Shown: piece by piece, positions 47,937-58,727 of the stretch | Numbering within the stretch: the stretch's first letter is position 1 | Layout: each line of letters opens with the position of its first letter | NCBI RefSeq assembly: GCF_001280505.1 | Contig: NZ_LBIO01000055.1 | Location: 62,001 to 126,000 of the forward strand | DNA: 64,000 nucleotides | DNA from: Mangrovimonas sp. TPBH4 | Lineage (GTDB): Bacteria; Bacteroidota; Bacteroidia; Flavobacteriales; Flavobacteriaceae | Direction: 5' to 3' | Translations under genes and position numbers: made by a program | The notes under the pieces: generated by a model | Seen by the model: only the letters and a program-made list of their open reading frames with translations | What the model was told of the DNA's origin: nothing | Database searches by the model: none

Positions 47937-49529
47937 ATGACGTCTACGTTTACAGAAATTCCAAAACAGTATCAAATTAAAAATCTCGTACATCAAAACA
48001 CATATTTGGTAGGGGGCGAGTTAAAAAAATGGAATGGTGAAACGTCAAATGTGTATTCTACCATTTCTTCCACCGAAGATTATCAACCTACCTTATTGGG
48101 GAGTATCCCAACCTTAGGAAAAACGGAGGCTTTGGAAGCTCTTGATGCGGCTTGCGATGCTTATGGAAAAGGACAGGGCTTGTGGCCAACCATGAAAGTT
48201 GCCAATCGCGTTGCCTGTATGGAAAAATTTGTTGAGCAAATGAAAACCAAGCGAGATGAGGTAGTTAAATTATTGATGTGGGAGATTGGAAAGAATTTAC
48301 CGGATTCCCAAAAGGAATTTGATAGAACCGTAGAGTATATCTATGATACTATTGAAGATTACAAGCAAATGGATCGGGATAGTGCCAAGTTTGAAAAGCA
48401 CGATGGCGTTCATGCCCATATTCGTCGTGGGCCTTTGGGAATCGTGTTGTGTTTGGGTCCGTATAATTATCCGTTGAATGAAACTTTTGCTTTGTTGATT
48501 CCCGCAATCATGATGGGAAATACCACTATATTTAAGCCAGCCAAGCATGGGGTTTTGTTATTGTCGCCACTCTTGGAGGCGTTTCAAAATAGTTTTCCGA
48601 AAGGGGTGGTGAACATCCTTTATGGGCGTGGCCGTACGGTGGCAACGCCTATTATGGAAACGGGCCGAATTGATGTATTGGCCTTGATAGGCAACAGCAA
48701 ATCGGCAAATGCACTGCAAAGCCATCACCCAAGACAAAACAGATTACGATTGGTATTGGGTTTGGAGGCTAAAAACCCGGCAATTATTTTGAAGGATGCG
48801 GATTTGGATTTGGCCATTTCAGAATGTATTTCAGGGACTCTGTCTTTTAACGGACAACGTTGTACTGCATTAAAAGTAGTGTACGTGCATGAAGACATTG
48901 TGGGGGAATTCAATAGACGTTTTTCTGAAAAAGTGGATGCTCTTAATTATGGAAATCCATGGGATAAGGGAGCACAGTTAACTCCGCTTCCGGAACCAGG
49001 TAAACCGGAGTATATTCAAGAGCTTATTGATGATGCCGTAAATAAAGGTGCTGAAATTGTCAATGCCAAGGGAGGTGAAACCACCGATAACTATATTTTT
49101 CCTGCCGTGCTCTACCCTATAAACAAAGAAATGAGAGTTTTTCAGGAGGAACAATTTGGTCCGGTAATTCCAGTGCTTTCCTTTAAAGATATTGAAGAGC
49201 CAATGGATGATATTGCCGATTCCAACTATGGACAGCAGGTAAGCTTGTTTGGTAGTGATGTGAAAACTCTGGCGCCGCTTATCGATACCTTGGTGAATTT
49301 GGTGTGCCGTGTGAATTTGAACAGTTCTTGCCAAAGAGGGCCAGATGTATATCCATTTACAGGTAGAAAGGATTCTGCAGTAGGAACATTGAGTGTGCAC
49401 GATGCGCTTCGTTCGTTTTCCATAAGGACTTTTGTGGCCTCTAAGGATAACGACTATAACAATGCGATTTTGAACAATTTGCTGGACTCCAAAGCTTCCA
49501 ATTTTGTGAGTACAGACTATATTCTTTAA
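47937..49529 (+). CDS. gapN: NADP-dependent glyceraldehyde-3-phosphate dehydrogenase (non-phosphorylating)
   Basis: The product has 530 residues and belongs to the aldehyde dehydrogenase superfamily. The ATG at 47937 is preferred; the open frame from 47892 starts with a non-ATG codon inside the promoter region. Catalytic Cys309 lies in [11 protein letters not shown] and the general base Glu277 in [30 protein letters not shown] is the typical cofactor-side stretch. It would oxidise glyceraldehyde 3-phosphate directly to 3-phosphoglycerate and yield NADPH. A possible -7 element (TATCTTTA, 47895-47902) suggests separate transcription from ilvA. Confidence 0.87.
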
Positions 49530-49658
49530 TGCTTTGTGAAAAAGATTCTGTCCCTTTTTAGGGATGGAATCTTCATAATATTTGCCCCTTTCGCTTAAAA
49601 AAATCATAATAATTATTAAAAACTAATGGGCAAATGAATTCTGTATTAAATAATGTTA

Positions 49659-49666
49659 TAAATTTG
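49659..49666 (+). promoter_or_regulatory. -7 element before the arg leader
   Basis: TAAATTTG is an exact TAnnTTTG match, four bases before the ATG of the first arg leader peptide. No good TTTG is seen at -33. The transcript would start almost at the leader ATG, as in the ilv leader. Confidence 0.55.
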
Positions 49667-49670
49667 TGGC

Positions 49671-49742
49671 ATGCAAAAATTAAAAAATAATAATGATGTA
49701 ATTGGTCGCTGTTTGCTGTATAGCAAACCCCGCCGTGTTTAG
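49671..49742 (+). CDS. Putative arg operon leader peptide 1
   Basis: This 23-codon frame starts MQKLKNNNDV and ends SKPRRV before TAG. It has three Arg codons, two of them consecutive (CGC CGT) just before the stop. A hairpin, GTTTGCT-GTAT-AGCAAAC (49711-49728), lies inside the frame directly before the Arg pair. It begins right after the predicted promoter, and the arginine operon follows. A leader that senses charged tRNA-Arg is the natural reading, but the full switch is not resolved. Confidence 0.65.
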   Translation: MQKLKNNNDVIGRCLLYSKPRRV

Positions 49743-49795
49743 TGGTATTCTACATTTAAGTCATTAAGCATACATTCATTTATTATTTTTTAAAA

Positions 49796-49891
49796 TTGAA
49801 AAAAACAGCACAAATAACATTCTTTAAAACTTCTATTACTGCTTTCCGCAGCAGTCTTAGGCTACGTGTTGTTTTTAACCGCCGCCCGTAA
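49796..49891 (+). CDS. Possible arg operon leader peptide 2 (TTG start)
   Basis: A 31-codon frame from TTG begins KKTAQITFFKT after the start and ends LRLRVVFNRRP. It has five Arg codons in its last 14 positions. Its last Arg codons lie in the 5' arm of a strong hairpin, and its stop codon TAA falls in the loop. There is no ATG in frame, so translation is uncertain. Codon content and position argue for it; the lack of a good start argues against it. Confidence 0.4.
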   Translation: MKKTAQITFFKTSITAFRSSLRLRVVFNRRP

Positions 49892-49900
49892 GGGTGTGGT
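49838..49900 (+). promoter_or_regulatory. Two hairpins in the arg leader
   Basis: ACTGCT-TTCCGC-AGCAGT (49838-49855) is a perfect six-pair hairpin. A stronger one follows at 49878-49900: ACCGCcGCCC, a GTAA tetraloop of the stable GNRA type, and GGGTGTGGT, nine pairs with two wobbles and one bulge. No T run follows, so neither is a normal intrinsic terminator. The remaining part to 49976 contains a weak GGAAT/ATTCC stem followed by a short T run (about 49911-49942). Confidence 0.55.
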
Positions 49901-49976
49901 CCTATCTTGGAATTTTAGGTGAGTCCGATTCCGTTTTCAAAACATTTATTTAATATTTTTAATAAAAAGAAAGGCA

Positions 49977-50588
49977 ATGAAGATTGTTATAGCAGATAAA
50001 TCTCATGCGGTTTACGCAACGTTAATAGCCGAAACTATTTCAGAATCAGCGAAGGTTCGCGGTACAGGTATTGCAAAGCGAACCCCAGAATATATCATTA
50101 CCAAAATGGAAAATGGTAATGCCGTAATTGCTTTGGACGAGGATAAATTTGTAGGGTTTTGTTATATCGAGGCCTGGGGCCACGGTAAGTTTGTAGCCAA
50201 TTCCGGTTTAATTGTCCATCCTGATTATAGAGGGCATGGCATGGCAAAAAAAATTAAAGCAAAGATTTTTGAGCATTCCAGGACCAAATTCCCAGACGCA
50301 AAAGTATTTAGTATCACCACAGGTTTGGCTGTTATGAAAATGAACAGTGAACTGGGCTATAAACCTGTGACCTTTTCTGAATTGACGGACGACCAAACCT
50401 TTTGGAATGGTTGCCAAACTTGTAAAAACTACGATGTGTTACAGCGAACAGAGCAAAAAATGTGCTTGTGTACAGGGATGTTGTATGATCCCAAAAAGCA
50501 AGTAGAGGAAAAAAAGCAGATTAAAACAAAGGTATATAAAAGGTTAAAGAGCATTAAGGAGAACCTGTTTTTAAAAAAGGAGAAATAA
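49977..50588 (+). CDS. GNAT-family acyltransferase, probable glutamate N-acyltransferase
   Basis: The product has 203 residues. The acyl-CoA binding core of the GNAT fold is seen in GLIVHPDYRGHGMAKKIKAKIFEHS (pyrophosphate loop RGHGMA). A cysteine-containing part follows (NGCQTCKNYD, MCLCTGM), then a basic C-terminal tail. It is the first gene of the arginine operon and overlaps argG by one base (TAATG). No argA or argJ is otherwise present in the operon, so I infer that it makes N-acetyl- or N-succinylglutamate. The family call is firm and the substrate is inferred. Confidence 0.8.
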   Translation: MKIVIADKSHAVYATLIAETISESAKVRGTGIAKRTPEYIITKMENGNAVIALDEDKFVGFCYIEAWGHGKFVANSGLIVHPDYRGHGMAKKIKAKIFEHSRTKFPDAKVFSITTGLAVMKMNSELGYKPVTFSELTDDQTFWNGCQTCKNYDVLQRTEQKMCLCTGMLYDPKKQVEEKKQIKTKVYKRLKSIKENLFLKKEK

Positions 50589-51775
50589 TGAGTAAGAAGT
50601 TAGTAATTGCGTACAGTGGCGGATTGGATACGTCCTACTGTGCAGTAAGTTTGTCAAAGGCGGGCTATGATGTGCATGCCGTAAGTGTGAATACGGGAGG
50701 TTTTACAAAGGAAGAAATAGCGCACATTGAAGCCAATGCCTATAAAATGGGAGTGTCTACCTATAAAAATATTGATGCCATTGCCACCTTTTATAATAAG
50801 GTTGTAAAATATCTTGTGTTCGGAAATGTGTTAAAAAACAATAGCTACCCTCTTTCTGTGAGTGCCGAAAGAATTATTCAGGCTATTGAAATCATTGAAT
50901 ATGCCAAATCCATAGGGGCTAAATATATTGCTCATGGAAGTACAGGGGCAGGAAACGACCAAGTGCGTTTTGACATGATTTTCCAAACTTTGGCTCCAGA
51001 AATTGAAATCATTACACCTATCAGGGACCAAAAACTATCAAGACAGGAAGAAATCGATTACCTAAAAAGTAATGGTATTGAAATGTCTTGGGAAAAAGCG
51101 AAATATTCGGTAAATAAAGGGCTTTGGGGGACGAGTGTTGGTGGCGAGGAAACCTTAACATCAGGCAAGCCTTTGCCAGAGCACGCCTATCCTTCGCAGT
51201 TGCAAAAAGAAGGAGATGAAAAAGTAATTCTGACGTTTACAAAAGGGGAGTTGACTGCCGTAAATGGAAAAGAAAATACGCCTGAAAAGAATATTCAAAT
51301 ATTGAATGATTTGGCGGCGCCTTTCGCCATAGGAAGAGACATTCACGTTGGAGATACCATTGTAGGAATCAAGGGGCGTGTAGGATTTGAAGCTGCAGCG
51401 GCCTTAATTACCATTAAGGCTCATCATTTGTTGGAAAAGCACACTTTGACCAAATGGCAGTTACAACATAAAGAGTATTTGACAAGTTTTTATGGGATGC
51501 ATTTGCATGAAGGACAGTATTTGGACCCAGTGATGAGAAACATTGAAGCTTTTTTGGAAAGCAGTCAAGAGCAAGTCTCTGGAGATGTTACTGTAAGTTT
51601 GAAACCATATCACTTTACCTTGGACGGTATTGAATCTGCTCATGATTTAATGAATGCCAAGTTTGGAAGTTACGGAGAAATGAACAAGGGATGGACTGCC
51701 GATGATGCCAAAGGATTTATCAAAATCTTTGGTAACCAGAACAAAATCTATCGCCAAGTAAATTCAGAATCATGA
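50588..51775 (+). CDS. argG: Argininosuccinate synthase
   Basis: The product has 395 residues and joins citrulline and aspartate using ATP. The N-type ATP pyrophosphatase motif is AYSGGLDTSYC (residues 8-18). AHGSTGAGNDQVRFD and the later GRVGFEAAAAL are typical. Length fits. The start overlaps the acyltransferase stop (TAATG) and the end overlaps argC by four bases, so translation is coupled. Confidence 0.95.
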   Translation: MSKKLVIAYSGGLDTSYCAVSLSKAGYDVHAVSVNTGGFTKEEIAHIEANAYKMGVSTYKNIDAIATFYNKVVKYLVFGNVLKNNSYPLSVSAERIIQAIEIIEYAKSIGAKYIAHGSTGAGNDQVRFDMIFQTLAPEIEIITPIRDQKLSRQEEIDYLKSNGIEMSWEKAKYSVNKGLWGTSVGGEETLTSGKPLPEHAYPSQLQKEGDEKVILTFTKGELTAVNGKENTPEKNIQILNDLAAPFAIGRDIHVGDTIVGIKGRVGFEAAAALITIKAHHLLEKHTLTKWQLQHKEYLTSFYGMHLHEGQYLDPVMRNIEAFLESSQEQVSGDVTVSLKPYHFTLDGIESAHDLMNAKFGSYGEMNKGWTADDAKGFIKIFGNQNKIYRQVNSES

Positions 51776-52749
51776 TTAGAACTGGAATTATTGGTGGCGC
51801 AGGGTATACAGCAGGAGAACTCATTAGATTGCTGTTGAACCATTCGGAAACCAAAATCGATTTTATTTATAGTACATCCAATGCAGGCAACCCTGTAAGT
51901 GCCGTTCACCAAGATTTGTTGGGCACCACGGATTTGAAGTTTTCAAGCACCATCAATCCTGAAGTAGATGTGCTGTTCTTGTGTTTGGGGCATGGGAATT
52001 CTAAGGCGTTTTTGGAAAATAATCAGTTTGCTGATCATACAAAGATTATTGATTTAAGTAATGATTTTAGATTGGAAGCCGACAAGACCTTTCATGGGAA
52101 AACCTTTGTGTACGGACTTCCAGAATTGAACAAGGCAGACATTAGAAAAGCTGATTATATTGCGAATCCAGGATGTTTTGCTACGGCCATTCAATTGGCT
52201 TTGTTGCCTTTGGCTAGTGCAGGGAAATTGCATGATGATGTGCATGTAAATGCCGTAACAGGGGCTACTGGAGCAGGAACATCTCTGTCCGATACCACAC
52301 ATTTTACATGGAGAGACAACAACTTTTCATATTATAAGCCTTTTACACATCAACATTTGGGAGAAATCAACCAGTCGGTAAAACAACTGCAATCAAGTTT
52401 TGATTCCAATATTTTGTTTATGCCTAACAGAGGGGATTTTTCAAGAGGAATTTTCGCTACGGCCTACACCAAATTTGATGGTGATTTGGAAGAAGCTAAG
52501 GAGCTGTATGAAGCCTGTTATAAGGACGATGCCTTTACTTTCGTATCCCAAAATCCATTGCACCTAAAGCAGGTAGTAAATACCAATAATTGTTTTGTGC
52601 ATTTGCACAAGCATGATGGAATGCTGTTGGTAACAAGTATCATTGATAATTTGCTGAAAGGAGCTTCCGGTCAGGCAATCCAGAATATGAACTTGATGCA
52701 TGGATTTTTTGAGACCGAAGGATTGAATTTAAAAGCGAATTATTTTTAA
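51772..52749 (+). CDS. argC: N-acetyl-gamma-glutamyl-phosphate reductase
   Basis: The product has 325 residues and reduces the acylglutamyl phosphate made by ArgB to the semialdehyde with NADPH. The nucleotide motif is GIIGGAGYTAGELIRLL. Catalytic Cys135 lies in ANPGCFATAIQLAL, the family signature. Length is normal. In this organism group the acyl group may be succinyl instead of acetyl. It starts inside the end of argG (ATGA overlap) and is followed by proC after 12 bases. Confidence 0.95.
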   Translation: MIRTGIIGGAGYTAGELIRLLLNHSETKIDFIYSTSNAGNPVSAVHQDLLGTTDLKFSSTINPEVDVLFLCLGHGNSKAFLENNQFADHTKIIDLSNDFRLEADKTFHGKTFVYGLPELNKADIRKADYIANPGCFATAIQLALLPLASAGKLHDDVHVNAVTGATGAGTSLSDTTHFTWRDNNFSYYKPFTHQHLGEINQSVKQLQSSFDSNILFMPNRGDFSRGIFATAYTKFDGDLEEAKELYEACYKDDAFTFVSQNPLHLKQVVNTNNCFVHLHKHDGMLLVTSIIDNLLKGASGQAIQNMNLMHGFFETEGLNLKANYF

Positions 52750-52761
52750 ACATATAAGTCT

Positions 52762-53562
52762 ATGAAATTAGCCGTTATTGGATCAGGTAATTTAGGGCAA
52801 TCTATTGCCAAAGGGTTAATCACTACCAATGCCGTTACAACTTTGTTTTTAACAAGAAGGCATGTGGAGGCACTTTCAGAATTTGAAGGATACAAAGGGG
52901 TTACCACCACCAACGACAATGTGTTGGCAGTGAAGCATTCCGATATTCTTATTTTTGCAGTGCAACCGTCCCATTTGGAAGCTATTTTGAAAGAGGTTGC
53001 ACCCTACCTGACTGAAAAACATGTGTTAATTTCAACCATAACAGGATACACCATTTCTAGGATTGAAGCCATTGTAGGGGAGAACCATTTTATCATCAGA
53101 GCCATGCCTAATACGGCCATTGCTGTTGGGAAATCTATGACCTGTTTATGTAGTAACGAACAAGGTGCCAAGCGTATTAAGGTAGCCGAAGCTATATTTA
53201 AAAGATTGGGACATACCTTAACTATTCCAGAGACCCAAATGCAGGCAGCCACTGTGGTTTGTGCTAGTGGTATTGCTTTTTGGATGCGTTTGATTCGCGC
53301 TACTACCCAGGCGGCCATTCAATTGGGGTTTGATGCTGAAGAGGCTCAAGAACTGGCTATGTATACGTCTGAAGGAGCGGCTAGTTTGTTGATTAACAAC
53401 GGACATCATCCAGAGGAAGAAATCGACAAAGTAACCACGCCAAAAGGTTGTACTATTGAAGGTCTTAACGAGATGGAACACAAAGGTTTGAGTTCCTCCT
53501 TAATTCAAGGTATGGTAGCCTCATTTAACAAAATCAACAATATTAAAAAAGAACAAATATGA
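52762..53562 (+). CDS. proC: Pyrroline-5-carboxylate reductase
   Basis: The product has 266 residues and reduces pyrroline-5-carboxylate to proline. The nucleotide motif is MKLAVIGSGNLGQSIAKGL. The family signatures IIRAMPNTAIAVGKSMTCL and VTTPKGCTIEGLNEME are present. Its place inside the arginine operon, overlapping argD by four bases, is notable: it links proline synthesis to arginine control, perhaps with pyrroline-5-carboxylate formed from ornithine. Confidence 0.93.
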   Translation: MKLAVIGSGNLGQSIAKGLITTNAVTTLFLTRRHVEALSEFEGYKGVTTTNDNVLAVKHSDILIFAVQPSHLEAILKEVAPYLTEKHVLISTITGYTISRIEAIVGENHFIIRAMPNTAIAVGKSMTCLCSNEQGAKRIKVAEAIFKRLGHTLTIPETQMQAATVVCASGIAFWMRLIRATTQAAIQLGFDAEEAQELAMYTSEGAASLLINNGHHPEEEIDKVTTPKGCTIEGLNEMEHKGLSSSLIQGMVASFNKINNIKKEQI

Positions 53563-54683
53563 GTTTGTTTAAGGTCTATCCGTTGTTTGATATCACTCCA
53601 GTTAAGGCGAAAGATGTCCTTGTATATGATGACAACGGAACCGAATATTTAGATCTTTATGGCGGGCATGCTGTAATTTCTATTGGGCATTCCCACTCCG
53701 AATATGTTAATGCTATTTCAAATCAAGTGGCCCAATTGGGCTTTTATAGCAATGCCATTCAAAATCCATTGCAGGAGGAATTGGCGGAAACATTAGCAAG
53801 GGTGTCTGGATGTTCAGATTACCAATTGTTCATGTGCAATTCAGGAGCTGAGGCTAATGAAAATGCTTTGAAGTTGGCCTCTTTCCATAACGGGAAGGAG
53901 CGAATTTTAGCTTTTAAAAATTCCTTCCACGGAAGAACTTCGGCAGCGGTTGCAGCAACAGACAATCCTAAAATTGTAGCGCCATTAAATGCGCAACAGC
54001 AAGTGGATTTTGTCGAGTTGAGAGATTTGGAAGCTGTAGAAGCTATCCTAGCTAGAAATGAAACCTGTGCCGTGATTGTTGAATGCATTCAGGGTGTTGG
54101 GGGATTGGACGAAAGCACCACGGAGTTTTACAAAGGCCTAGAAAAGTTGTGTCAACAATACAATACGCTTTTAATTGCCGATGAGGTGCAAAGTGGCTTT
54201 GGGAGAACTGGGGATTTCTTCGCGTTCCAAAAACACGGGATAACTCCAGATGTCATTTCATTGGCGAAGGGGATGGGGAATGGTTTTCCTGTTGGAGGGA
54301 TTTTGATCCACCCAAAATTTGAAGCATCTTTTGGAATGTTGGGAACTACTTTTGGTGGAAATCACTTAGCTTGCGCGGCTTCTTTGGCAGTATTAAAGGT
54401 CTTGGAACATGAAAATTTGATGAATAATGTAAAGGAAGTTTCAGACTATTTTATAGAGCAAGCACAATCTCTCAAAGGTCTGAAGAATATCAAAGGGAGA
54501 GGCTTGATGCTTGGTTTAGAGTTCGATTTTAAGGTGGCCGATTTGCGCAAACAGTTGATTCATAAATATAAAATTTTCACTGGAAGTGCCAATAATCCAA
54601 ACTTAATCAGGATTTTGCCACCACTAACGGTGCAAAAACAACATATCGACCAGTTTTTAACAGCTTTGAAAAGCGAATTATAG
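53559..54683 (+). CDS. argD: Acylornithine aminotransferase
   Basis: The product has 374 residues, a class III pyridoxal-phosphate aminotransferase that turns the acylglutamate semialdehyde into acylornithine. The cofactor lysine is Lys237 (ISLAKGMGNGFPVGG). MCNSGAEANENALKLA binds the cofactor phosphate and LLIADEVQSGFGRTG holds the Asp contacting the ring nitrogen. Whether acetyl or succinyl substrates are used is not visible. It overlaps proC by four bases and abuts argF'. Confidence 0.94.
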   Translation: MSLFKVYPLFDITPVKAKDVLVYDDNGTEYLDLYGGHAVISIGHSHSEYVNAISNQVAQLGFYSNAIQNPLQEELAETLARVSGCSDYQLFMCNSGAEANENALKLASFHNGKERILAFKNSFHGRTSAAVAATDNPKIVAPLNAQQQVDFVELRDLEAVEAILARNETCAVIVECIQGVGGLDESTTEFYKGLEKLCQQYNTLLIADEVQSGFGRTGDFFAFQKHGITPDVISLAKGMGNGFPVGGILIHPKFEASFGMLGTTFGGNHLACAASLAVLKVLEHENLMNNVKEVSDYFIEQAQSLKGLKNIKGRGLMLGLEFDFKVADLRKQLIHKYKIFTGSANNPNLIRILPPLTVQKQHIDQFLTALKSEL

Positions 54684-55622
54684 ATGAAAAAGTATACCGA
54701 CATAAGCGATATTACTGATCTTGATAGTTTGATAAGAGAAACCATTTTGTTGAAAATGACACCTTTCGAATATCATGGTTTGGGAAAGCACAAGACCTTG
54801 GTGATGCTCTTTTTTAATGCAAGTTTGCGAACGCGTTTAAGTACGGAAAAGGCAGCCAGGAATCTTGGTATGGAAGTGATGTCTCTTAATGTTAATGAGG
54901 CTTGGCAGTTGGAGTTTGAGGACGGAACGGTAATGGATGCCAATACTTCAGAACATGTTAAGGAAGCGGCTCAAGTGATTTCGCAATACGCCGATATTAT
55001 TGCGGTAAGAGCATTTCCAAGTTTGACCAATAAAGTAAAGGATCAGTCGGAATATATCTTAAAAAGTTTTGAAAAATACGCCACGGTACCAATTGTCAAT
55101 ATGGAGAGCGCCACGGCGCATCCCTTGCAGGCTTTGGCCGATGCCGTGACTATTTCGGAATTTACAGAGACAAAACGGCCCAAAGTGGTCTTGTCTTGGG
55201 CACCGCACCCCAAAGCTTTGCCTCAAGCGGTGGCCAATTCATTTGCATCTATGATGCAGCGAATGGATGTCGATTTTCAAATTACGCATCCAGAAGGGTA
55301 TGAGTTAGATTCCAATATCACCAAAGATGTGCCAATTATCTATAATCAGGAAGAAGCCTTAGCCGAAGCCGATTTTGTATATGTAAAAAACTGGAGCAAT
55401 TTTAATGACTACGGAAAAGTGTTGAATACAGACCCTAATTGGATGATGACTGCTGAAAAACTTGGTAAGGCCAAGTTTATGCACTGTCTACCAGTACGTA
55501 GAAATATGGTGGTTGAAGATGCAGTTTTGGATGGTGGTCAATCCATCGTGATGCAGCAGGCCAATAACAGAACTTTTGCCGCACAAATAGTATTGAAGCA
55601 AATTTTAGAAAATCTGAATTAA
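54684..55622 (+). CDS. argF': N-acetyl/N-succinylornithine carbamoyltransferase
   Basis: The product has 312 residues. It carbamoylates acylated ornithine, not free ornithine. The carbamoyl-phosphate motif is FFNASLRTRLS. HPLQALAD and HCLPVRRNM replace the HPTQ and HCLPA forms of ordinary ornithine carbamoyltransferases. The stretch WAPHPKALPQAVANSF and the later HPEGYELD agree with the Bacteroides fragilis enzyme as I recall it. Ser89 (NTSEH) lies where the acetyl enzyme has Glu and the B. fragilis succinyl enzyme has Pro. Its stop overlaps the argB start (TAATG). Confidence 0.9.
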   Translation: MKKYTDISDITDLDSLIRETILLKMTPFEYHGLGKHKTLVMLFFNASLRTRLSTEKAARNLGMEVMSLNVNEAWQLEFEDGTVMDANTSEHVKEAAQVISQYADIIAVRAFPSLTNKVKDQSEYILKSFEKYATVPIVNMESATAHPLQALADAVTISEFTETKRPKVVLSWAPHPKALPQAVANSFASMMQRMDVDFQITHPEGYELDSNITKDVPIIYNQEEALAEADFVYVKNWSNFNDYGKVLNTDPNWMMTAEKLGKAKFMHCLPVRRNMVVEDAVLDGGQSIVMQQANNRTFAAQIVLKQILENLN

Positions 55623-56398
55623 TGGAAACGCTTAAAATTGTAAAAATAGGAGGAAACATTATAGACGATTCTAAGGCTTTAGATGCATTTTTAGAGCAAT
55701 TTTCAAGGATGGAATCTCCAAAATTATTGGTGCATGGTGGAGGGAAATTAGCTTCTCAATTGGCTCAAAAGATGGAGGTGGAAGTGAAAATGGTGCAAGG
55801 TAGACGTATCACGGATGCCGAAACATTGGACATCATCACGATGGTATACGGAGGAAAAATCAATAAAAATATTGTGGCAAAACTTCAGTCGCTTAGCTGT
55901 AATGCCATTGGTTTTACAGGTGCTGACGGAAACACCATTGTTTCTGTAAAACGTCCTGTAAAAGATATCGATTACGGATTTGTAGGTGATGTTGAAACCG
56001 TAAATACCGAAATTTTGGAGTTGTTGATGGGGCAAGATATTGCTCCAATATTTTGTGCCATTACCCATGATTCACAGGGGAGTTTGCTCAACACCAATGC
56101 AGATACCATTGCTTCGGAATTGGCAATCGGTTTTGCTGAAAAGTACAATGTAGAACTATATTATTGTTTTGAGAAAAATGGTGTATTACGTGATGTGAAT
56201 GATGATGATTCTGTAATTGAAACCATCACCGAACCAATTTATCAAAACTTGCTTTCAGAAGGGATTATTGCCGATGGAATGCTGCCTAAATTAAATAATT
56301 GTTTTCATGCAATTAACAAGAATGTAACCAAGGTTTGCATTGGTAAACCAAACATGTTAACCCAAGCTACCACAAAATTTACAACAATTACCAAATGA
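55622..56398 (+). CDS. argB: Acetylglutamate (acylglutamate) kinase
   Basis: The product has 258 residues and phosphorylates the acylglutamate with ATP, usually the feedback-controlled step. It starts LKIVKIGGNIIDD, followed by LLVHGGGKLASQLA, the amino-acid-kinase loops. GFTGADGN and LNTNADTIASELA are the substrate-side motifs. It lacks the N-terminal helix linked to arginine inhibition in other groups, so control may lie in the leader. It overlaps both neighbours by one and four bases. Confidence 0.94.
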   Translation: METLKIVKIGGNIIDDSKALDAFLEQFSRMESPKLLVHGGGKLASQLAQKMEVEVKMVQGRRITDAETLDIITMVYGGKINKNIVAKLQSLSCNAIGFTGADGNTIVSVKRPVKDIDYGFVGDVETVNTEILELLMGQDIAPIFCAITHDSQGSLLNTNADTIASELAIGFAEKYNVELYYCFEKNGVLRDVNDDDSVIETITEPIYQNLLSEGIIADGMLPKLNNCFHAINKNVTKVCIGKPNMLTQATTKFTTITK

Positions 56399-57456
56399 TT
56401 CAAGAACTGACACAGCATGCCATAACTTTGTTGAAAGAGCTCATTGCCTCTCCTTCTTATTCTTCAGAGGAGGACCAAACAGCAACGCATATAGAGACTT
56501 GGTTCAAAGGGTATGATATTCCTTATAAAAGAGATAACAATAATGTATGGTCTATCAATAAATATTTTGACGAGAGCAAACCAACCTTGTTGCTCAATTC
56601 CCATCACGATACTGTAAAACCAAATAGCGGTTACACCAAAAATCCTTTTGAGGCCATTGTAGAGGATGGTAAGCTTTACGGTTTGGGAAGTAATGATGCA
56701 GGAGGTTGTTTGGTATCACTTTTGGCAACCTTCACCTATTTCTATGCGAAAGAAGATTTAAAATATAACTTGGTGATTGTGGCTTCTGCGGAAGAAGAAA
56801 GTAGCGGACCTAATGGCTTGAATAGCATGCTGGAGATTATTCCGGAGGTGGATGTCGCTATTGTAGGCGAACCAACACTTATGAATTTAGCCGTTGCAGA
56901 AAAGGGATTGGTGGTATTTGATGCCGTGGTAAAAGGAACCCCAAGCCATGCCGCGCATCCAAATGATGATAATGCCATATACAATACCATTAAGGTGTTG
57001 GAATGGTTTCAAAGGTTTCAATTTGAAAAGGTGTCCGAAACTTTAGGAGAAGTGAAATTAACCGTTTCTCAAATTAATGGTGGAAAACAACACAATGCCA
57101 TTCCTGCCAATGTGGATTTAGTTGTGGATGTGAGGGTGAATGACCAATACACCAATCAGGAAGTTGCAGATATTTTGATGAAGGAAGCACCATGCGATAG
57201 CATTGTTCCGAGAAGTTTACGATTGAATTCTTCTTCCATACCTGTGGAGCATCCTTTGGTGAAAGCTGGAATCGCTTTGGGAAGGGAAACCTATGGGTCA
57301 CCTACGCTATCTGACCAAGCTGTGCTGTCTTGTCCATCTTTAAAATTGGGACCTGGAGACAGTACGCGCTCGCATTCTGCCGATGAATTTATTTATCTGC
57401 ATGAAATTGAAGAAGGAATTAAGATTTATATTGAATTGCTAAATAACGTATTATGA
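56395..57456 (+). CDS. argE: Acylornithine/acylcitrulline deacylase, M20 family
   Basis: The product has 353 residues. The M20 metal ligands are His in LLLNSHHDTVKP, Asp in LYGLGSNDAGG and the Glu-Glu pair in VASAEEESSGPNG. The dimerisation domain follows (about 165-270). In a pathway with acylated carbamoyltransferase the deacylase must act on acylcitrulline. It overlaps argB and argH by four bases each. The annotation as acetylornithine deacetylase is common, but the operon context suggests acylcitrulline as the true substrate. Confidence 0.9.
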   Translation: MIQELTQHAITLLKELIASPSYSSEEDQTATHIETWFKGYDIPYKRDNNNVWSINKYFDESKPTLLLNSHHDTVKPNSGYTKNPFEAIVEDGKLYGLGSNDAGGCLVSLLATFTYFYAKEDLKYNLVIVASAEEESSGPNGLNSMLEIIPEVDVAIVGEPTLMNLAVAEKGLVVFDAVVKGTPSHAAHPNDDNAIYNTIKVLEWFQRFQFEKVSETLGEVKLTVSQINGGKQHNAIPANVDLVVDVRVNDQYTNQEVADILMKEAPCDSIVPRSLRLNSSSIPVEHPLVKAGIALGRETYGSPTLSDQAVLSCPSLKLGPGDSTRSHSADEFIYLHEIEEGIKIYIELLNNVL

Positions 57457-58727
57457 AGCTCTGGGATAAAGGCTTGGCCATTGATAAAAAAATAGAACAG
57501 TTTACCGTAGGAAACGATAGAGAAATAGATTTGCATATTGCAAAATATGATGTTTTGGCATCTCTGGCACATGCCAAAATGTTGCAGCATATTGGAATTT
57601 TAAATGAGGTAGAGCTTGAGCAGTTGGAAGAAGGATTGCAACATTTGAAGGAACAAATAGAAGCGGGAACATTTATAATTGAAGGCCAGTTTGAAGATGT
57701 GCATTCTAAAATAGAATTTGAACTGACCAAAACTTATGGAGAAGTAGGAAAAAAAATCCATACAGCACGTTCTAGAAACGATCAGGTTTTAGTAGCCTTA
57801 CAGTTGTATTACAAGGAAAATATTCAGGAGATTCTATCAAAAACAGAAGCGTTCTTTTTGTCACTTTTGGACTTGGCCAATACCCATAAGGATAAACTGT
57901 TGCCTGGTTACACGCATTTGCAGGTGGCAATGCCATCTTCGTTTGGATTGTGGTTTTCTGCCTATGCCGAGATTTTGGTTGATGACAGTTATATGTTGCA
58001 GGCGGCCTTAAAAACAGTGGATCAAAATCCGTTGGGCTCGGCTGCTGGTTATGGAAGTTCCTTTGCAATTGACAGGGAATTTACAACCAAAGAACTTCAA
58101 TTTGAAACTCTAAAATACAATGTGGTGGCAGCGCAAATGAGCCGAGGCAAGAGTGAGCGAACCATTGCGGCTGCTTTAGGAGGCTTAAGTAACACCATGG
58201 CGCGTTTTGCAATGGATATTTGTTTGTATATGAGCCAGAATTTTGGTTTCATTTCATTTCCAGATGAATTGACCACAGGAAGCAGCATCATGCCTCATAA
58301 GAAAAACCCCGATGTTTTCGAATTGCTTCGTGGCAAATGCAATAAAATTCAAGCGCTTCAAACCGAAATGACTTTGATTACAAATAACCTTCCCAGTGGT
58401 TACCATAGAGATTACCAATTGTTGAAGGAATCTATCATAGCGGGAATAGAGGATGTGAAGGATTTGTTGGATATTTTTAACTATGCTATTCAGCAGGTAG
58501 AAGTAAAGGATATTGATTTGAATGATTCCAAGTATCGCTACCTCTTTACGGTAGACAATATGAATACTTTGGTTGAAAACGGCATGAGTTTTAGAGAAGC
58601 TTACCAGGTTATTGGTAAGCAGGTACAGGAGGGAACTTATACACCAGACACTTCCAAACAACATACCCATGTTGGAAGCATGGGGAATTTACGTTTGGAG
58701 GATATCAAGGCTAAATTCGCAAGGTAG
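57453..58727 (+). CDS. argH: Argininosuccinate lyase
   Basis: The product has 424 residues and splits argininosuccinate into arginine and fumarate. The fumarase/lyase signature GSSIMPHKKNPD is present with the catalytic Ser. AMPSSFGLWFSAYAEIL replaces the more usual QPAQPTT region, and HTARSRNDQV is intact. It is the last gene of the nine-gene operon. One base separates it from the converging kinase gene, with no terminator in between. Confidence 0.95.
   Translation: MKLWDKGLAIDKKIEQFTVGNDREIDLHIAKYDVLASLAHAKMLQHIGILNEVELEQLEEGLQHLKEQIEAGTFIIEGQFEDVHSKIEFELTKTYGEVGKKIHTARSRNDQVLVALQLYYKENIQEILSKTEAFFLSLLDLANTHKDKLLPGYTHLQVAMPSSFGLWFSAYAEILVDDSYMLQAALKTVDQNPLGSAAGYGSSFAIDREFTTKELQFETLKYNVVAAQMSRGKSERTIAAALGGLSNTMARFAMDICLYMSQNFGFISFPDELTTGSSIMPHKKNPDVFELLRGKCNKIQALQTEMTLITNNLPSGYHRDYQLLKESIIAGIEDVKDLLDIFNYAIQQVEVKDIDLNDSKYRYLFTVDNMNTLVENGMSFREAYQVIGKQVQEGTYTPDTSKQHTHVGSMGNLRLEDIKAKFAR

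Follow-up and report, generated by a model that had tools for sequence, protein, structure and literature searches.

In Salmonella, arginine is sensed by consecutive Arg codons within orf34/SpeFL, the leader ORF of speF, whose output runs through Rho, RNA structure and RNase G (PMC6386406). In Staphylococcus aureus, the Arg codons of the leader ORF rbfL pause ribosomes when arginine is short (PMC13009471). A leaderless control ORF for trp has been described in Sinorhizobium (PMC7298713), and leaderless polycysteine short ORFs of mycobacteria are cited for attenuation of downstream translation (Canestrari et al. 2020, as cited in PMC9031893). In Flavobacterium psychrophilum, amino-acid operons were reported to have structured 5' regions, and the relevant passages propose leader-peptide attenuation in general terms (PMC9723704).

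We analysed a stretch of 64,000 nucleotides from the marine flavobacterium Mangrovimonas sp. TPBH4 (the window), in which a leader lies directly upstream of a nine-gene arginine (plus proC) operon. We hold, with a probability of about 0.8, that this region regulates the arg operon in cis and in response to arginine by means of leader peptides, with a stalled ribosome keeping a hairpin (hairpin C) open. We regard such a switch as very probable because most of the Flavobacteriaceae share this layout. Comparison of the loci shows conservation of the leader ORFs, of their Arg codons, of where the start codon stands with respect to the promoter box, and of four helices (hairpins B, C and D, and P1). 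In the open-access literature we found no earlier account of such an arginine leader from Bacteroidota, and the original prediction, too, knew of none.

The arginine operon and its relatives

The operon (49977..58727, on the + strand, as are all features of the window given below) begins with the gene for a GNAT acetyltransferase, followed by argG, argC, proC, argD, an argF-like gene (acetylornithine carbamoyltransferase), argB, an argE-like gene and argH. The GNAT protein is 98% identical to that of M. xylaniphaga (Mangrovimonas). A search for ArgR was negative in all 40 Flavobacteriales genomes tested (G000 and 39 relatives), whereas 9 of 14 control genomes were positive. A strong terminator-like hairpin (49542-49573) lies 3' of an aldehyde dehydrogenase gene and immediately ahead of the arg promoter.

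Flavobacteriaceae are abundant in the sea, in soil and in fish disease. The first 30 relatives were collected by the GNAT protein alone, with no use of the leader, and all 30 have an Arg-bearing leader frame that runs into hairpin C and is followed, ~20 nt 3' of C, by hairpin D. Adjacent Arg codons occur in 29 of these leaders and the ending RRP-stop in 26. A covariance model of C and D built from the 30 loci (R1) matched 241 of 397 Flavobacteriaceae genomes, with one match per genome and E-values down to 7e-19. The positive genera include Winogradskyella, Polaribacter, Tenacibaculum, Gelidibacter, Olleya, Lacinutrix, Ulvibacter, Kordia and Psychroflexus. In a class-wide sample only members of the Flavobacteriaceae scored strongly with R1, and the matches outside the family were weak, with E near 0.01 (L075-L077). 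Two layouts were distinguished: tandem leaders (type I, 62 loci, including the window) and a single leader (type II, 58 loci), with 27 loci assigned to neither. The Rfam search gave nothing near any gathering score within 49400-50100, and by this search the arg leader matches no T-box or riboswitch of a described family.

Other arrangements were seen before the GNAT gene. In one genus, probably Flavobacterium (g151; L278-L291), the GNAT gene is present and the genomes tested gave no R1 match. These loci have a probably leaderless leader whose C-terminus (...TSPEVR(M/T)L) is conserved, together with a conserved CGG codon and a hairpin ACUUC-UCCC-GAAGU, the leader element lying ~280 nt upstream of the GNAT gene; it is a different, possibly peptide-specific element. 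In two further Flavobacteriales families, f15 (L262, L263, L275) and f9 (L271-L273), the GNAT gene is preceded by divergent leader ORFs that contain fewer Arg codons and have hairpins of their own, and in family f5 (L268-L270) the GNAT gene has no adjoining Arg-rich leader.

Promoter and leader peptides

The -7 promoter element, TAAATTTG (Bacteroidota TAnnTTTG), lies at 49659..49666. Because the consensus box is placed at -12 to -5 (PMC9723704), the predicted +1 is 49671. The box stands 4-6 nt ahead of leader 1 in 62 loci. The leader start codon comes 4 nt past the box in 48 of the 62 type I loci and 7 nt past it in 40 of the 58 type II loci, where spacings of 3-13 nt were listed and those of 3-6 and 4-9 nt accepted for typing. 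With the box at -12 to -5, the predicted 5' UTR of the arg leader is 0 or ~3 nt. Since its start codon coincides with the predicted transcription start, leader 1 is probably leaderless, beginning on that start or ~3 nt after it. In this genome the his and trp leader peptides start farther from their promoter boxes. Leaderless mRNAs are uncommon in Bacteroidota (PMC6847099; PMC7366714).

Leader peptide 1 (ORF1, 49671..49742; MQKLKNNNDVIGRCLLYSKPRRV) starts with ATG, has 23 codons and ends SKPRRV; a homologous leader 1 was found in 62 loci. Leader peptide 2 (ORF2, 49796..49891; LKKTAQITFFKTSITAFRSSLRLRVVFNRRP) starts with TTG, has 31 codons, five Arg within the last 14, and ends NRRP-stop (RSSLRLRVVFNRRP). 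Its frame is conserved: the frame running into hairpin C is open over 18 codons in 147/147 loci, as against 60 and 58 for the other two frames. The leader 1 frame is open in 62/62 loci, with 0 and 3 for the others; this set had been picked as open, whereas the 147 loci had not. The start codon of leader 2 is TTG or GTG in 52 of 60 tandem loci, and translation of this leader could therefore be weak.

Arg enrichment of the leaders is far above chance. The mean number of Arg was 5.1 in leader 1 and 4.3 and 4.2 in the other two leader sets, in 23, 31 and 26 codons respectively, and 97-100% of leaders have at least three, while Arg makes up only 2.7% of residues in neighbouring genes. In the leaders adjoining hairpin C, positions -2 and -3 counted from the stop are Arg in 93-100% and position -1 is Pro in 95-100%; for leader 1, Arg at -2 and -3 was found in 74-85%. 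Tandem leaders differ at the C-terminus, with RRR or RRF in one and RRP in the other. Outside the Arg codons the residues drift, and the N-terminal parts vary freely among loci. The Arg codons of the leaders are CGC or CGT whereas GNAT genes favour AGA, and the share of CGN among Arg codons was 86-95% in leaders versus 42% in GNAT genes. For leader 1 this bias is not explained by hairpin C, because leader 1 does not contain it. Short ORFs with clustered Arg codons of this kind are, at the level of sequence, what is expected of a ribosome-mediated leader-peptide attenuator in the broad sense.

RNA helices of the leader

The 306-nt leader folded better than 100/100 dinucleotide shuffles (z = -3.9). 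To evaluate single helices we used an arm-swap test, which compares the duplex energy of a locus's own arms with that of partners from other species; shared ancestry is uncorrected in all of its z values, and a control pair gave z = -0.3. The stored structure is paired in 98.5% of cells across 100 loci, compared with 23-64% in slid controls, and all-against-all coevolution scans recovered the same helices.

Hairpin C (CCGCCGCCC-GTAA-GGGTGTGG, 49879..49899) has a 5' arm that includes the final two Arg codons and a loop that includes the TAA stop codon (49889-49891). The loop fits GNRA in 118 of 147 loci, and the other 29 (UUAA, GUAG, CUAG and others) are made up of the Pro codon and the stop codon; with 29/147 loops not GNRA, a GNRA-specific tertiary contact of C was ruled out. 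In L119 and L135 the Pro codon has changed from CCG to ACG (Pro-to-Thr) and the opposite C strand has changed to match (CAC/GTG), a compensatory replacement of C-G by A-U. The entire C stem has been rewritten in L021, and in L009, L130 and L166 the leader stop codon is lost or moved and the frame runs on. The compensated stem changes and the shifted stops therefore indicate that the RNA hairpin, and not the peptide, explains the RRP ending. The same comparison argues for a hairpin C that must hold Arg codons in its 5' arm. An overlap of control codons with a conserved hairpin, again a mark of leader-peptide attenuators in the broad sense, is thereby seen in the aligned loci.

Inside leader 2, hairpin B (ACTGC...GCAGT, 49838..49855) was among the top matches of the coevolution scans and gave arm-swap z values of -12.3 in tandem loci and -8.9 in single-leader loci. 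Helix P1 is long-range and joins the beginning of leader 1 to the region where ribosomes would enter leader 2: its 5' arm (49680..49699) lies within leader 1 and its U-rich 3' arm (49771..49793) directly 5' of the leader 2 start codon. Both arms were identified by the MFE structure, by the arm-swap test (z = -8.4 in the 62 type I loci, z = -4.9 in type II) and by the all-against-all scan (z = -6.0). Column-wise covariation of P1 in gapless single-leader sequences gave no clear signal, probably because of register shifts. A small hairpin in leader 1 (TTTGCTGTATAGCAAA, 49712..49727), just 5' of its Arg codons, was recovered in the all-against-all scan and had an arm-swap z of -3.4. A signal between leader 1 and D3 in the type I scan (z = -5.3) was regarded as a probable clade effect.

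Hairpin D (GGAAT-TTTA-GG-UGAGU-CC-G-ATTCC, 49909..49932) is more conserved in sequence than C. All four counted pairs of its stem have changed on both sides (in 24, 4, 7 and 8 cells among 100 loci) and its arm-swap z was -17.6. On this freely covarying stem sits an asymmetric, invariant apical part, UA-GG-UGNGU-CC-R. The pentaloop is TGAGT in 123, TGTGT in 20 and TGCGT in 4 of 147 loci that were themselves selected by the pentaloop pattern, and the pattern UGNGU also fits all 30 loci selected by protein. In the source genome, D with its stem was found only at the arg operon. Outside the Flavobacteriaceae, a D-like hairpin with the loop UACGU or UCCGU occurs at the Arg-leader loci L264, L267, L296 and L297, and the divergent family member L265 likewise has one of these loops; because of these five loci, UNNGU may be the wider D consensus.

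Three other roles or partners proposed for D were rejected. Bacteroidota rarely use Shine-Dalgarno sequences, and a reading of D as a Shine-Dalgarno-like AGGUGA was ruled out because its sixth position can be A, U or C, GUCC never changes, and other families retain the hairpin with the loop UACGU or UCCGU. A pairing between GGUG of D and CGCC of C is broken in L021, where D is unchanged. A competing linker/D helix (UUCUA...UGGAA), suggested by eye, had no support from the coevolution scans.

The original prediction had described an exact -7 element, a 23-codon frame ending KPRRV, a second frame from TTG with five Arg in its last 14 positions, a GTAA-capped hairpin with the final Arg codons in the 5' arm and the stop in the loop, and a nine-gene operon downstream, and each was found as described. 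The GNRA cap that it named is present in the window as GTAA, but it is incidental, as the variable loops of the relatives show. Its call of a leader that serves the arginine operon and encodes Arg-rich peptides was borne out in the relatives, and so were the two checks it proposed: frames and Arg codons are kept, which speaks for coding constraint, and the stems of C and D covary. Hairpin D and helix P1 were absent from it.

Alternatives, mechanism and known systems

A classical trp/his-type attenuator, in which C (or D) would be an intrinsic terminator and an antiterminator would form on ribosome stalling, is rather unlikely at this locus. Leader-peptide control of that type is used in the source genome, as its his and trp leaders show: the hisG leader (MTFIQLHHHLHTCPQAR; L178, 1332-1447) and the trpE leader (MQTILNNTWWWSSRNAVFVN; L179, near 3029-2911, - strand) each combine a classical leader peptide with a canonical terminator, scoring +35.8 and +48.9, respectively. 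However, the median terminator scores were -18.8 for C and -50.4 for D, with values above 0 in 22/147 and 0/147 loci. A lenient scan had flagged C as a terminator in many loci, most of which were rejected on scoring, and a terminator scan of the window leader found none within it, only that of the upstream gene at 49542-49573. Nor did the all-against-all coevolution scans find any helix competing with C or D. Judged by sequence, the two hallmarks of the classical trp/his attenuator, an intrinsic terminator and an exclusive antiterminator helix, were not found. The tract 3' of C is moderately U-rich (~58% U at positions 5-14 after GGG), so weak termination could still occur there.

The near-constant RRP ending of the leaders adjoining C might suggest that the RRP-stop peptide itself stalls the ribosome on arginine, like the fungal arginine attenuator peptide (AAP) or SpeFL. 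We consider this improbable, since Pro is replaced by Thr or Ala in several loci (L021, L119 and L135) with compensating changes in C, the stop codon has moved in three others, tandem leaders end differently, and the rest of the peptide lacks the conserved chain of AAP, SpeFL and TnaC. We likewise give little credence to D as a small metabolite-binding RNA for arginine or a pathway intermediate that the leader peptides only tune. Its invariant asymmetric apical part and its restriction to the arg operon would suit such an RNA, but other families keep the hairpin with different loops, the scans gave no switching partner helix and Rfam had no match. Peptides acting in trans, with RNA structure secondary, have a precedent in peTrpL of Sinorhizobium (PMC7298713); as the peptides are unconserved outside the Arg codons whereas the RNA pairing is conserved, this explanation is very improbable.

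The reading we prefer, a ribosome that stalls on Arg codons and so keeps hairpin C open, would work as follows. The transcript would begin on the first start codon or a few bases ahead of it, and a ribosome would therefore load immediately at its 5' end. If charged tRNA-Arg reading CGC/CGU is scarce, the ribosome would stall on the tandem Arg codons at the leader end and cover the 5' arm of C, so that C could not form and the operon would be expressed. When arginine is plentiful, the ribosome would reach the stop codon in the C loop and leave, C would fold and expression would fall. This fall is probably not plain intrinsic termination, because C has no canonical U-tract in most species; candidate outputs are weak or factor-dependent (e.g. 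Rho) termination, pausing, and a translational or stability effect. Hairpin D probably joins the output step as a predicted binding site. Where two leaders stand in tandem, leader 1 would be a second sensor in series, linked by P1 to the entry site of leader 2. P1 would cover the leader 2 entry region in type I, and in type II it would close over the 5' end once the ribosome has left, limiting re-loading.

The attenuation proposed originally thus stands in its leader-peptide part, and a classical terminator/antiterminator switch was not found; that stalling at Arg codons changes the folding and controls the operon is what we, too, infer. More tentatively, the locus may represent a new class of Flavobacteriales arginine regulator, with a leaderless, partly tandem leader, no terminator, and output via a factor or ligand that binds D (UNNGU). 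If true, ribosome loading at the 5' end with no intrinsic terminator would be another way to build leader-peptide control. With its invariant loop and covarying stem, D offers a concrete starting point in the search for the missing factor or ligand.

As far as the citing source describes them, the mycobacterial polycysteine ORFs resemble the arg leader in placing repeated codons for the amino acid that they sense upstream of an operon, in a short ORF that is leaderless there and probably so in the arg leader; phylum and amino acid (Cys) differ. We know of no tandem leaders or D-like hairpin in that system. The rbfL leader has only eight residues and AGA/AGG codons, its target is a biofilm regulator, and pausing there represses by covering the RBS. 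Like the arg leader, orf34/SpeFL has Arg codons in a leader ORF and no plain terminator as output, but it controls ornithine decarboxylase, has a conserved peptide domain and is unrelated in sequence. The F. psychrophilum proposal concerns the same family, and arginine, tandem leaders and hairpin D are absent from its passages on the subject (PMC9723704). The trp and his attenuators, including those of hisG and trpE in the source genome, have in common with the arg leader a short leader ORF with clustered codons for the amino acid of the operon, followed by hairpins. The his and trp leaders of the source genome have a 5' UTR and a canonical terminator, whereas the arg leader probably has neither, and carries the conserved hairpin D.
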